Shown here in pieces: positions 1 through 47,213 of a DNA stretch of 64,000 nucleotides. The position numbers and the translations under genes were made by a program. The DNA is taken from NCBI GenBank assembly GCA_903844155.1, contig CAIMSU010000113.1, positions 1 through 64,000 of the forward strand, given 5' to 3'. Positions within the stretch are counted from its first letter, which is position 1, and each line of letters starts with the position of its first letter. The notes under the pieces were generated by a model. That model did not search any database. It had not been told where the DNA came from and saw only the letters and a program-made list of their open reading frames with translations. This stretch comes from an uncultured Pseudomonadota bacterium (GTDB taxonomy: Bacteria > Myxococcota_A > UBA796 > SXON01).

Positions 1-4
1 AGAT

Positions 5-35
5 GTACCAGAAATGCTCTCCGCAATTGTGGTCA
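5..35. repeat. REP element, family A (isolated copy)
   Basis: A 31-bp imperfect palindrome whose centre, TGCTCTCCGCA, and arm, TTGTGGT, match the element at 47183-47213 with few mismatches; a third, inverted copy lies at 46312-46342. The last bases supply the TGA stop of the GMC oxidoreductase gene, so the element sits directly at the 3' end of that operon. The window edge hides what lies beyond it. It is probably a dispersed REP mobilised by the RAYT at 46393-47178; that link is inferred from shared sequence. Confidence 0.75.
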
Positions 36-10414: not shown

Positions 10415-11311
10415 CTACCCGGTCACGGTCAGCGGGCCGGCAGGCATCTGCGCCAGGTCCATCCGGGCGTCCCGAAATGGAGGTTCAGCGCCGAGAAAGG
10501 GGAGGAGCAGGTCCCAGACCCGCTCGGGGGTCCAGCCGGTGGCGCGGAGGGCGACAAGCTCGGTGGAACCGTGGGACTTGGAGAGCTTGCGGCCGTCGGG
10601 GCCGAGCAGGACGGGGACGTGCAGGTAGGTCGGGAGCGGGAGGCCGAGGGCTTCGTGCAGACGGACCTGCACGGGCGTGGCGTCGAGGAGATCGGCGCCG
10701 CGAACCACCTCAGTCACCCCATCGCGTGCGTCGTCGACGATCACGGCGAGGGGGTAGGCCGCGGTGCCGTCGGCGCGCTGGAGGATGGGATCGTCGCCGG
10801 GCGGGAGGGTGAGGGGGCCTCGGGCGCGGTCGGTGAAGGAGACGGGGCCTTCCGGGGTGCGAAATCGCCACGCGCCGGTGTCGCCCGCGAGAAATCGGCA
10901 GCGACAACCCCACGAAAGCCGCGTGGCGCGCGAGCAGGCGCAGCGGTAGGTGGGGATGCCGTCCAGCGGGTAGGTGCGCCGGCTCTGGGGGCTGACCTCC
11001 TCGTCCCAGTCGATGCCGAGCCAACGGAGATCATCCCGTTGGGACTGCGCAATCTCGTCGCGCGCGCGGCCTTGATCGAGGTCTTCGATGCGCAGCAGGA
11101 GCCGCCCCGATGTATCAAAAGTGACGTCGTCAGTTTTGCTATGTCGGAGGGTATCAAAAGTGACGTCGTCGGTTTTGATAGATGGGGGCGGGCGGGCGCC
11201 GTTGCGGGCGGAGAGCCAGGCGGCGCCGAAAGCGAGGGCGTTGCCGAGGTGGAGGCGGCCGGAGGGGGTTGGGGCGAGACGCCCGGTGGGCGGCATGGCG
11301 GTGGGCGGCAT
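10415..11311 (-). CDS. gluQ: Glutamyl-Q tRNA(Asp) synthetase with in-frame REP insertion
   Basis: Attaches glutamate to queuosine in tRNA(Asp). Motifs are all present: APTPSGRLHLGN (HIGH-type, residues 13-24), RIEDLD (about 74), zinc ligands CAC...CRC, DDARDGVTEVVRGADLL, and KLSKS. Between WLSARNGA and GRLLLRIED there are about 29 additional residues (40-68), absent from ordinary GluQ where this loop is a few residues. They are encoded by two tandem copies of a dispersed palindrome (11113-11180) and read IKTDDVTFDT twice, 13 residues apart. The frame is kept, so the enzyme may still be functional, with a surface loop near the active site. The 5' end has a duplicated 15-bp unit giving two ATGs (11311 and 11296), and either could start the protein. 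Confidence 0.85.
   Translation of the reverse strand: MPPTAMPPTGRLAPTPSGRLHLGNALAFGAAWLSARNGARPPPSIKTDDVTFDTLRHSKTDDVTFDTSGRLLLRIEDLDQGRARDEIAQSQRDDLRWLGIDWDEEVSPQSRRTYPLDGIPTYRCACSRATRLSWGCRCRFLAGDTGAWRFRTPEGPVSFTDRARGPLTLPPGDDPILQRADGTAAYPLAVIVDDARDGVTEVVRGADLLDATPVQVRLHEALGLPLPTYLHVPVLLGPDGRKLSKSHGSTELVALRATGWTPERVWDLLLPFLGAEPPFRDARMDLAQMPAGPLTVTG
11113..11180. repeat. REP element family C, tandem pair inside gluQ
   Basis: Two 29-bp copies, 11113-11141 and 11152-11180, in the same orientation and 39 bp apart. Each begins TATCAAAAGTGACGTCGTC; the second ends GGTTTTGATA exactly, the first ends AGTTTTGCTA. Each copy is itself a hairpin (arms TATCAAAA and TTTTGATA). The same unit occurs at 34456-34515 between genes. 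Here the pair is inside a coding sequence, and its minus-strand translation has no stop. The 39-bp period keeps both copies in the same codon phase. Confidence 0.9.
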
Positions 11312-23090: not shown

Positions 23091-24932
23091 ATGGCTTCTC
23101 TCGCCGACCAATTCTGCCCGAACGTCCACGACGCGGCCATCACCGCGGCGGCCTACGACCCTTGGAGCGGGGTGATGGCAACGGCCGATGCGGCGGGGGT
23201 GGTGGCCGTCCAGCGCGTCGGCGAGAGCACGCCCGGCCTCATCTTCCAGCCCGGGGTCGGCGTCACGGGCGCGCTCCACATCATCCGCGGCGGGTCGCTG
23301 ATCGCGGTAGGCGATAATGACGGGACAATCGGGGTTTACAGCACGGCGGACGGCTCCCCGGAGTTCCAGGAGGTCCGCGAGGGCGCCCGCGGCCGCGTAC
23401 GGGCGATGCGCGGGGTGGCGATCTCGCCCGAGGGCGCGCGCGTCGCGACCATCGCGATCGACGGCCTGCTGCGGATCTGGGAGATCGAGAAGGGCACGCG
23501 GGCGGTGGCCTGGCAGGGTTTTGCCGGGTTGACCGTGGAGTTCGACGAGCGGGGTCAGCGCGTACTCTGCCTCGACGACGCCGGCCAGCCGCGCCTCGTG
23601 GATCTGCTCTCCCACCAGGGCCTGCCGATGGACCGACTGCAGATGCCGGCGGAGCGGGCGATGTTTTCGCTTGACGGCACGCTCGTCGTGACGGTCGGGC
23701 AGGCCGGCATCTCGCTCCTGCGCGTGGTCGACGGGCACATGGTCGCCAGCTTTGCGACGCGCGGTGGCTCCGGGATCCTCAACGTCGTCCAGCGGCCGGA
23801 CGGCGCGCAGATCGGCGCGGTGAGCGCCCGGTCGATCCACATCTTTTCGATGCCCGACCTCCAGCCCGTCGAGAGCCTGCGGCATGGGGCGCCGGACGCG
23901 ACGGGCGCGGCGTGGTGGGGTCAGAACGGCATTCGGGTCGGCGGTTCGGACGGGCTCGCGCACGGCTCGGGCACGGGGAGCGCCGGGCCGGTGACGGCCG
24001 TGGGCGGCTTTGGCGACACCCGGCTCTGCGTGCACGGGGATCGCGTCGCCGTGTGGTCGAAGAACCGGCGTATGCGCGAGCTTGTTGCCGGCCAGGGCGC
24101 GGGGGCGATCCGGGAGGTCAAGGTGGACCGGGACGGGCGCTACGTCCTGTGCGTCCCCCAGAGAGCGGCGATCACCGTGCATGATGCGCACACCGGCAAG
24201 GTCGTGCTCGACGGCGGCCCGGAGACCATCGGGGCGACGACGGCGGAGATCGGCGGGACCGTCGTTGCGGCGCAGCTCGTCGCGGGCGGTGTGCGCTGGT
24301 GGGATCTCGCGCGGGGCAAGGCGCTGGAGCTCCGCTGGCCCGGCGGGATGACGCTTTCGCATGGTGGAACCTGGCTGGGTGTCATCACGCCTCGGGGAGC
24401 GCTCAAGATCCTCGACCCCGCGAATGGCCGCGAGGCCATCCCGGATCCCGTGCCCACCGCGGACGTCCCGGCGCGCCTCCTCTCGTTCGTCAACCGTCGC
24501 CCGGACCTGCTGGTCGTGGACGCCGAGAACATCCTCGCGCACTACGATCTCGGCGCTTCCGCCCGGGAGAAACGCCCGGCCGAGGGCCGCGACGTCATCC
24601 AGCTCCACGCCCCTCCCGACCGCGTCTGGGGCATCACGGGCGGCCAGTACGCCGCGCTGCGCGTGCCCGAGGGCAACGAGTGCACGCTCCTGTTTGTCGA
24701 CATCCAGAAGCAGACAGTCGTCGCCGAGGTCAACAAGCTCCATCGCGACGCGCAGGTCGACGCGGAGAACGGCTACATCCTCGAGCCCGCGCGGTCAGGC
24801 GCGCTGCTGGAGCGCGAGATGAATGGCACCGAGCGCCGTGTGTTGCGCGCGTTGCCCGATGGACAGTGGATGTGCTTCAGCAAACGCGGGATTCTCGACG
24901 CCAGCGAGGGCGCCGGCACGGGTCTACGATAG
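23091..24932 (+). CDS. WD40/quinoprotein-like beta-propeller protein
   Basis: A 613-residue protein made largely of repeating blade units with SPEGARVATIAIDGLLRIWEIEKGT-type strands (residues about 115-140), DGTLVVTVGQAGISLLRVVDG, and DGRYVLCVPQRAAITVHDAHTGKVV. This fits a WD40-like propeller. There is no signal peptide, so it is probably cytoplasmic. No catalytic motif is present; a scaffold role is likely for the family. It follows tatC by 33 bases on the same strand but shows no coupling. It ends 2 bases from the convergent hypothetical gene. Confidence 0.75.
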   Translation: MASLADQFCPNVHDAAITAAAYDPWSGVMATADAAGVVAVQRVGESTPGLIFQPGVGVTGALHIIRGGSLIAVGDNDGTIGVYSTADGSPEFQEVREGARGRVRAMRGVAISPEGARVATIAIDGLLRIWEIEKGTRAVAWQGFAGLTVEFDERGQRVLCLDDAGQPRLVDLLSHQGLPMDRLQMPAERAMFSLDGTLVVTVGQAGISLLRVVDGHMVASFATRGGSGILNVVQRPDGAQIGAVSARSIHIFSMPDLQPVESLRHGAPDATGAAWWGQNGIRVGGSDGLAHGSGTGSAGPVTAVGGFGDTRLCVHGDRVAVWSKNRRMRELVAGQGAGAIREVKVDRDGRYVLCVPQRAAITVHDAHTGKVVLDGGPETIGATTAEIGGTVVAAQLVAGGVRWWDLARGKALELRWPGGMTLSHGGTWLGVITPRGALKILDPANGREAIPDPVPTADVPARLLSFVNRRPDLLVVDAENILAHYDLGASAREKRPAEGRDVIQLHAPPDRVWGITGGQYAALRVPEGNECTLLFVDIQKQTVVAEVNKLHRDAQVDAENGYILEPARSGALLEREMNGTERRVLRALPDGQWMCFSKRGILDASEGAGTGLR

Positions 24933-28179: not shown

Positions 28180-28248
28180 CCGGATCCGAGCTGCTCAGAT
28201 CGCGCTATTGGTATGTCAAGAGCCGGATCTGAGCAGCTCAGATCCCGG
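28180..28248. repeat. REP pair (BIME), family B, left of RAYT 1
   Basis: Two inverted palindromes: GGATCCGAGCTGCTCAGATC (about 28182-28201) and GGATCTGAGCAGCTCAGATC (about 28225-28244). They are separated by a spacer that contains GCTATTG. The same two-palindrome arrangement, with the GCTATTG spacer, occurs in the same orientation at 29161-29227, so the RAYT gene is bracketed by direct copies of the composite unit. It lies in the promoter region of the PBP gene. Confidence 0.85.
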
Positions 28249-28370
28249 TCTTGACGGGTCCGGCGCCGCATGACTTCCGTCAGTGACAACGGCACCCGCC
28301 CGTCGATGGCAAAATTGGCGAGGAACAACCGTAGCCCCCATTCTTGCATGGAGCGTGGTCAGGAGCCCCC

Positions 28371-29156
28371 ATGGACTACGTTCACGCCATCGCCACCGCC
28401 GCGCACGACAAGCCAGTTTTCACCGATCCGGCCGTGGTCGCGGACGTGTTCCGTGGGTTCGAGGCGGCCTCTGAGCACGGCGCCGAGGTAGCCGCCTACG
28501 CCTTCATGTCCGCCCATCTCCACATGCTCCTCGGCGTGTCGGCCCCGCGAGGGCCCGGCGCTGCGGTCCAGCGCATTCTCGGCCCCGCAGCATGGTGTCT
28601 CAATCGGCGACAGCAGCAAAGAGGCGCGATTTTTCTGCACCGATTCTGGCGCGCCGAGGCGCTCGACCAGGGCCACCGTTGGATCCTGCCCTTGTACATC
28701 CACGCGAACCCGGCGCCGCGAGCTCCGGACGTGCGGAGGCTCAGCGTCGGCTGCCGGTCGAGTCACGATGCGTGGTCCACTGGCTCGGGTCCGCCGTGGC
28801 TGCGACCGGGCGCCGCCTTAGAGCAGTTCGACGGCCACTACAGAGAGGCCTTGGAGGAGTATCTGGCCCGCCGCGCGAGTGCCCCGGCCCCTCGGGTGCC
28901 GCTCACGGCGCGGGAAGAGTGCGTGCTCTCGGCGGTTGCCCATGTGACCGGGTCGCGGTGGGACACGTTGCTGCAAGCCGATCGGGGCGGGAAGCGCGAC
29001 CGTATGTTGCTCGTATGGGCGCTCGCGCGGGACGTCGGAGTGGCCGCCGCTGCGCGTGTGGTCAGGATCAACCCGCACACGGCGGCCCGTTGGGTAGCTG
29101 CGGCGAACGAGCCCGAGATGCGCCCATGGCGAGCCAAACTCGGCGCGACGGGCTGA
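28371..29156 (+). CDS. REP-associated tyrosine transposase (RAYT) 1
   Basis: A 261-residue Y1/HUH single-strand transposase of the RAYT group, expected to nick and join REP hairpins. The HUH motif is MSAHLHMLL (His49, His51), and the helix with the likely catalytic Tyr reads PLYIHANP (Tyr109). The C-terminal half is an added domain ending in a helix-turn-helix (VAAAARVVRINPHTAARW). AGGAG precedes the ATG at 28371. It aligns without gaps over the first 110 residues with the RAYT at 46393-47178. No second transposon gene is present, as usual for RAYTs. The flanking family B repeats are its likely substrates (inference from position). Confidence 0.85.
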   Translation: MDYVHAIATAAHDKPVFTDPAVVADVFRGFEAASEHGAEVAAYAFMSAHLHMLLGVSAPRGPGAAVQRILGPAAWCLNRRQQQRGAIFLHRFWRAEALDQGHRWILPLYIHANPAPRAPDVRRLSVGCRSSHDAWSTGSGPPWLRPGAALEQFDGHYREALEEYLARRASAPAPRVPLTAREECVLSAVAHVTGSRWDTLLQADRGGKRDRMLLVWALARDVGVAAAARVVRINPHTAARWVAAANEPEMRPWRAKLGATG

Positions 29157-29160
29157 CGGA

Positions 29161-29228
29161 CCGGATCTGAGCTGCTCAGATCATGCTATTGACGCGTCGA
29201 GAGCGTGATCTCAGCAGCTCAGATCCGG
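29161..29228. repeat. REP pair (BIME), family B, right of RAYT 1
   Basis: GGATCTGAGCTGCTCAGATC (29163-29182) and, inverted, GATCTCAGCAGCTCAGATCC (29208-29227), with the GCTATTG-containing spacer between. It begins 5 bases after the RAYT stop and ends about 24 bases before the protease start codon. It therefore occupies the place where the protease promoter would be expected. Confidence 0.85.
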
Positions 29229-34455: not shown

Positions 34456-34515
34456 TATCAAAACCGACGACGTCAGTTTTCGTACGTATCAAAAGTGACG
34501 TCGTCGGTTTTGATA
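34456..34515. repeat. REP element family C, inverted pair forming a 60-bp palindrome
   Basis: Two 29-bp units in opposite orientation, 34456-34484 and 34487-34515. The outer arms TATCAAAACCGACGACGTCA and TGACGTCGTCGGTTTTGATA are perfect 20-bp complements. The same unit occurs twice inside gluQ (11113-11180). It starts 2 bases after the methyltransferase-like stop and ends 9 bases before the coaC stop, between two convergent genes. It could act as a two-way transcription terminator, but the copies in gluQ show it is a dispersed element. Confidence 0.88.
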
Positions 34516-46311: not shown

Positions 46312-46342
46312 GCCCCACAACTGCAGAGACCATTTGTGGTAC
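46312..46342. repeat. REP element family A, left of RAYT 2 (inverted)
   Basis: CCACAACTGCAGAGACCATT then TGTGGTAC. It is the reverse complement, with a few changes, of the element right of the same RAYT (47183-47213). It lies 51 bases before the RAYT start codon. Confidence 0.75.
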
Positions 46343-46392
46343 ATTCGGGCGCGTCGCCGCCCTCCGCCCTCCCCGCCGCGCCTCGGAGCCCC

Positions 46393-47178
46393 ATGCCCCA
46401 CGTCCATGTCATCATCAGCGCCAACCAGGATCGCCCTGTCTTTTCCGAGCCGGAGATCATCCGCGACACGTTCATCGCGTTCGAAAGGGTCGCCAGCGAA
46501 GGCGCGACGATCTCGGCCTACGCGCTGATGTCCGCCCACGCCCACCTGCTGCTTGGCGCCGAGGATCCCGCCGAGGTCGGCTCGGTGATGGCCCGGATCC
46601 TGGCCCCGCTCGCCCGGAACATCAACGGGCGGCTCAAGCAGCACGGCGGGGTTTTCCGCCACCCCTACTGGCGCGGCGTGGTCCGATCGGCGTCGCACTT
46701 GTACATCCTACCCCTGTACATCCACGCGAATCCGTCGCCGCACGCCACGACCCTCGCGCGCCTGGACGTTGGTCTGCGGTCCAGCCACGCGGCCTGGATG
46801 TCGGGCGACGCTCCCGATTTCTTGCGCCCCCGCGCTGCCCTTGACCAGTACGCCGGCGATTATCCCGCAGCAATGCAGGCGTTTTTGGATGACCGTGCCG
46901 CCGCACCTGTCGCCGGGGCGCTCGCCGAGGGGCCGGAGCAGTACACCATCCTGGCGGTGGCCCGCGCGACGGGAACGCGCCCGGCGACGTTGCTGGACAG
47001 CGCTCGCGGTGGCAAGCGCGACCGGATGCTGCTGGCGTGGGCGCTCGGCGAGGAGTTCGGGAACGCGGCGGCTGCGCGAATCCTCGGCGTCGAACGCCAT
47101 ACGATCGGGCGATGGGCGCGCGCGGTAGCGGTGGACGACACGTTTGGGCCCTCACGCGCTCGGCTCGGTCCCGCGTGA
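46393..47178 (+). CDS. REP-associated tyrosine transposase (RAYT) 2
   Basis: 261 residues, the same length as RAYT 1, with His49 and His51 of the HUH motif (MSAHAHLLL) and the putative catalytic Tyr109 (PLYIHANP) at identical positions. The N-terminus PHVHVIISANQDRPVFSEP matches DYVHAIATAAHDKPVFTDP of RAYT 1. The C-terminal domain contains GGKRDRMLLAWALGEEFGNAAAARILGVERHTIGRW, a helix-turn-helix that may read the REP. Start 46393 is supported by GGAG upstream (46384-46387). It is flanked by inverted family A REPs, a different repeat family from RAYT 1, so the two systems appear separate. Confidence 0.85.
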   Translation: MPHVHVIISANQDRPVFSEPEIIRDTFIAFERVASEGATISAYALMSAHAHLLLGAEDPAEVGSVMARILAPLARNINGRLKQHGGVFRHPYWRGVVRSASHLYILPLYIHANPSPHATTLARLDVGLRSSHAAWMSGDAPDFLRPRAALDQYAGDYPAAMQAFLDDRAAAPVAGALAEGPEQYTILAVARATGTRPATLLDSARGGKRDRMLLAWALGEEFGNAAAARILGVERHTIGRWARAVAVDDTFGPSRARLGPA

Positions 47179-47182
47179 TGAT

Positions 47183-47213
47183 CTACCACAAGTGCTCTCC
47201 GCAGTTGTGGTAG
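47183..47213. repeat. REP element family A, right of RAYT 2
   Basis: A 31-bp palindrome, CTACCACAAGTGCTCTCCGC followed by AGTTGTGGTAG. The arms CTACCACAA and TTGTGGTAG are perfectly complementary. It starts 4 bases after the RAYT stop and sits between convergent genes (glgC ends at 47235). Same orientation as the copy at 5-35. Confidence 0.85.

Follow-up and report, generated by a model that had tools for sequence, protein, structure and literature searches.

An inserted loop in the tRNA glutamyl-Q(34) synthetase (GluQRS) of an uncultured bacterium is encoded by two units of a dispersed 29-bp palindrome, TATSAAAANNGACGNCGTCNNTTTTSATA, whose family is restricted to one species and whose copies also bracket a transposase gene of the RAYT type on another contig (C268). 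Judging from sequence comparisons, we put at roughly 80% the probability that the insert consists of two units from a non-autonomous, REP/REPIN-like palindrome family peculiar to this species, which the C268 RAYT mobilised in trans and which is tolerated in frame. The DNA stretch analysed (the window, 64,000 nucleotides) belongs to an 8.1-Mb metagenome-assembled genome (MAG) of 375 contigs with 4.98% contamination, in which the gluQ copy sits on a 173-kb contig. It was compared with 57 relatives, including four of the same genus (G001-G004); those closely related are themselves MAGs, most of which bear the label "uncultured proteobacterium". The features discussed are located in Table 1.

Table 1. 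Location of the principal features (window coordinates unless a contig or locus is named)
Feature	Position	Strand	Remarks
gluQ, tRNA glutamyl-Q(34) synthetase GluQRS, 298 aa	10415..11311	-	ORF, NCBIfam, alignment to relatives, dN/dS
Palindrome unit 1 in gluQ	11113..11141	.	minus strand encodes SKTDDVTFD
Palindrome unit 2 in gluQ	11152..11180	.	39 bp from unit 1; minus strand encodes IKTDDVTFDT
Intergenic doublet, unit 1	34456..34484	.	flanked by two converging genes whose 3' ends are 2 and 9 bp away
Intergenic doublet, unit 2	34487..34515	.	31-bp spacing
RAYT-type Y1 tyrosine transposase gene, 265 aa	C268:23797-24595		bracketed by TATSAAAANNGACGNCGTCNNTTTTSATA doublets
Doublets around C268 RAYT	C268:23694-23753 and 24591-24650
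Second RAYT gene	28371-29156	+	51% identical to C268 RAYT; locus 28182-29226
Third RAYT gene	about 46393-47178	+	locus 46315-47210
Longer subtype, ~165 bp	L089, L101, L112, L123, L081, L088

The gluQ product matches the NCBIfam GluQRS model TIGR03838 with E=4.5e-60, at a score under the model's curated cut-off. A preliminary description of this DNA had claimed a palindrome pair with 39-bp spacing inside gluQ, a frame without stops through it and retention of the catalytic and zinc motifs, and all of this is borne out: both units are present, the frame is open, and the HIGH-like, KLSKS and cysteine columns are all conserved. Alignment with relatives shows WLSARN joined near-directly to GGRLLLR in the wider GluQRS family and places the inserted loop at about residues 41-67. 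The ~29 extra residues of the earlier account hold against the wider family, whereas against the four genus-mates the excess is only 23-25. The loops of all four, unrelated in sequence, are already 4-6 residues longer than those of the family, so that the palindromes account for 23-25 of the ~29 residues; a close relative with a loop of the same length, which would have spoken against an insertion, was not encountered. Because the relatives are only about 75-80% identical in protein, the exact ends of the insertion cannot be read. The dN/dS of gluQ against genus-mates is 0.12-0.20, a range also obtained when insert-free relatives are compared with one another. An AlphaFold2 model gives pLDDT values mostly above 90 for the core and about 50 for the insert (residues 41-60), which appears as a low-confidence loop. 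The gene with its insert thus appears, from these comparisons, to be intact and functional. As single-stranded DNA, the palindrome pair folds as one hairpin (z=-8.4).

A genome-wide search allowing up to 3 mismatches found 101 copies of the unit, against none for a reversed-pattern control, and the 19-bp core gave 115 matches in the source genome. The window holds four copies, where dinucleotide shuffling of the window gives an expectation of 0; the copies that had been reported between genes at 34456-34515 are indeed two units, and the finding that would have undercut a dispersed family, namely no copies beyond these, did not materialise. The unit has no copy in the 57 relatives, the four same-genus genomes included, and exact-pattern scans of 84,980 GTDB r220 reference genomes and of IMG/VR, which may omit the source genome itself, gave no match. 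The family is restricted to one species.

Pattern searches together with 72 genome stretches yielded 78 mapped elements, a set that possibly misses further units, mostly on late contigs. They comprise 44 singlets, 33 doublets and one triplet, the doublets being spaced at 31 bp in 24 cases and at 39-47 bp in nine. Each unit consists of AT-rich arms around a GACG-N-CGTC core. The units being near-palindromic, doublet orientation was judged by the centre base, which is inverted (A/T) in 17 of 33. Single strands of the elements form strong hairpins (z -6 to -9), and the intergenic doublet in the window folds at -26 kcal/mol (z=-9.1). The flanks carry an A at position -3 in 84%, and target-site duplications or flanking direct repeats at the mapped elements do not rise above chance. 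At about six places a longer subtype occurs, in which two palindrome units with common flanks form a long hairpin; this is possibly a larger MITE-like form.

Relative to genes called with a codon-usage gene caller built for this analysis, 28 of the 78 elements separate tandem genes, 19 separate convergent ones and 12 divergent ones; six lie at contig edges and 13 in genes (11 internal and two within the last few codons). Adjacent 3' gene ends are at a median distance of 11 bp, 5' ends at about 50 bp; 56 of the 66 adjacent 3' ends are within 60 bp of an element, and doublets prefer convergent gene pairs. Genic insertions are far fewer than random placement would give at 80-90% coding density, a shortage consistent with purging. 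Elements were also found at 10 pairs of tandem ORFs lying close together, none of which proved to be two halves of one domain; two ketosynthase genes on C234, considered as a split gene, resemble a tandem pair.

The count of copies within coding frames proposed earlier returned 11 genes with internal in-frame elements, gluQ included (about 14% of the 78), most of them members of recognised families. Besides GluQRS, the hosts are RlmD, a CaiB-type CoA-transferase, a CusA/CzcA transporter, a CobW GTPase, a lipase maturation factor, a carbamoyltransferase, a glycosyltransferase, two membrane proteins and a multi-FabA-domain protein. Orthologues in G001-G004 (for CusA, the genome's own paralogue) are without an insert at the corresponding point; RlmD and the lipase maturation factor are 12 residues longer than their orthologues, and the sites in the FabA-domain protein, CobW and the membrane protein on C77 fall in poorly alignable linkers, where the empty site is less clean. 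On each strand, one of the three phases of the palindrome holds TGA stops and the other two stay open, and it is these two that the genic insertions use, reading as (I/M)KTDxVxFD and (V/L)SKxTxSxxI. The cell probably makes these host proteins with the extra loops.

The C268 RAYT gene is enclosed by TATSAAAANNGACGNCGTCNNTTTTSATA doublets on both sides, the upstream one ending 44 bp before the start codon and the downstream palindrome containing the stop codon. The chance of such bracketing, reckoned for five RAYT genes, is ~5e-6. The product matches Y1_Tnp (PF01797) above cut-off, and its H49-x-H51 and Y109, corresponding to the HUH motif and the catalytic tyrosine, are invariant. Its model fold matches 4er8, 2vjv and 2xm3, with the IS608 and ISDra2 TnpA among them; 4er8 is the REP transposase in complex with its REP hairpin. 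The protein therefore combines HUH motif, catalytic tyrosine and Y1 fold. NF047646 (REP_Tyr_transpos) of NCBIfam is its best family, although it is a divergent member (39.8 bits against an 80-bit cut-off, E=3.8e-10).

The C268 RAYT has paralogues in the source genome, two of which lie in the window. The second RAYT gene is flanked on each side by two copies of a different palindrome, GGATCTGAGCNGCTCAGATC, for which the matches listed across the genome number about 25. The third has 30-nt inverted ends, CCACAACTGCRGAGASCAYTTGTGGTANAT, for which about 57 were counted genome-wide among the matches listed, many at contig ends; one, at window 3-32, lies at the first bases of the contig. The source genome thus holds at least three RAYT-palindrome pairs, and since each paralogue is bracketed by a different palindrome, the association is specific. 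RAYT systems have been described as pairing each enzyme gene with a palindrome of its own (PMC2817692), as is seen here.

In the mechanism that we favour, the palindrome unit would form a hairpin in single-stranded DNA, and the C268 RAYT would recognise it, cut beside the unit and attach it to other stretches of single-stranded DNA, leaving no target-site duplication. Surviving insertions would lie mostly right after gene ends. Some genic insertions could also survive at variable surface loops when length and phase preserve the frame, because only one of three phases per strand carries TGA stops; in gluQ, the insert would add a flexible and presumably harmless loop to an otherwise intact-looking protein. 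Against this explanation stand the missing GTAG, the RAYT score under the NCBIfam cut-off and the fragmented MAG.

The best-known coding palindromes are those of Rickettsia, which insert in frame in functional genes, and the eleven genes described here show the same. The preliminary description had accordingly proposed a Rickettsia-element-like insertion; as regards behaviour (dispersed, in frame, gene left open) the comparison stands, but as a classification RAYT-associated palindromes fit better, since doublets of this palindrome lie on both sides of a RAYT gene. We know of no RAYT bracketing for Rickettsia palindromic elements, and of no transposase there. It is nevertheless conceivable, if unlikely, that the palindromes are selfish DNA of that kind, spread by another enzyme or by recombination, with the C268 RAYT merely another insertion locus. 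The equivalent genic behaviour of the Rickettsia elements would agree with this, as would a 2013 survey in which CGTC-type repeats, Rickettsia RPE-4 and RPE-6 among them, flank no RAYT (PMC3733652), but doublets within 50 bp on both sides of the C268 RAYT, and two further paralogues each bracketed by a separate palindrome family, argue for a specific association.

Less probable still is that the palindromes are selected cis elements, either bidirectional terminators or stabilisers of mRNA 3' ends, whose genic copies are accidental. Such a role would suit their closeness to 3' ends and the preference of doublets for convergent pairs, but 3'-end proximity is also typical of REPs in other genomes (PMC3733652), and neither restriction to one species nor eleven in-frame insertions would be expected of a terminator. 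We regard as very improbable that the gluQ loop reflects chimeric assembly or the decay of gluQ into a pseudogene: the MAG is fragmented and contaminated and other palindrome copies lie at contig ends, but gluQ lies on a long contig, evolves under the same dN/dS as in insert-free relatives, keeps its conserved columns and is joined by ten further genes with an equivalent in-frame pattern.

We therefore file the palindromes as a RAYT-associated, REPIN-like family without GTAG, the best fit being TIRtrons (PMC3733652) arranged like REPINs (PMC3116915). As in REPINs, inverted doublets fold into one hairpin and the ratio of singlets to doublets is below 2 (44 versus 33). With REPtrons and REPINs (PMC2817692, PMC3116915, PMC8266576) the family shares more than 100 short palindromes in hairpin-forming singlets and doublets, mostly near gene 3' ends, and a bracketed RAYT gene encoding an HUH/tyrosine enzyme. 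It differs in that the GTAG/GTGG tag of classical REPs at the hairpin foot is absent from both the unit consensus and the flank profile, in its AT-rich arms and GACG-N-CGTC core, in a RAYT far from the NCBIfam model and in the share of elements within genes. TIRtrons (TIRYT) likewise have non-GTAG inverted repeats around a RAYT, some self-complementary and in moderately abundant families (PMC3733652); unlike them, many in-frame genic copies are documented here gene by gene. Intragenic REPs, in which palindromes in open frames add tens of residues to unrelated proteins, have been published for Opitutus terrae, Thauera and others (PMC3733652), but these are GTAG or CGTC-1 to CGTC-4 units, whereas another family, with orthologue-empty sites, is involved here.

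CGTC REP families 1-4 were considered as a home for the palindrome and rejected for mismatches in stem, loop and tail: in CGTC REPs, the CGTC tag precedes an 8-9 bp stem starting with AT, the loop measures 4-5 and the tail is CCA (PMC3733652), whereas our unit has CGTC at its centre only, followed by two variable bases and TTTTSATA, with no CCA tail. RPE-4 and RPE-6 (PMC3733652) share in-frame insertion in functional genes and a CGTC motif, which, going by its description, is arranged differently; the bracketed RAYT is a further difference. It is a doubtful idea that the palindrome represents a CGTC-tagged family with a dedicated RAYT, the missing transposase partner of a superfamily including the coding palindromes of Rickettsia. 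Were the common CGTC core significant, the palindrome and its RAYT would make up the first pair of CGTC repeat and RAYT, but a four-base motif is weak evidence.

Each component of the system is already known, and they are rarely found together so clearly in one genome; the distinctive combination is a CGTC-cored palindrome lacking GTAG, which flanks its own RAYT and has many in-frame genic insertions. With palindrome, bracketed RAYT and eleven in-frame insertions in one genome, protein lengthening by a RAYT and its hairpin becomes directly testable, and the at least three RAYT-palindrome pairs are useful for studying enzyme-hairpin co-evolution. In the genus-mate G001, RAYT genes at L203 and L191 are bracketed by the unrelated palindromes CTCACCCCGAAGATCGTATCG and CGGGTAGGATCCGCCCTCCG, which suggests that RAYT-palindrome pairs turn over rapidly within the genus.
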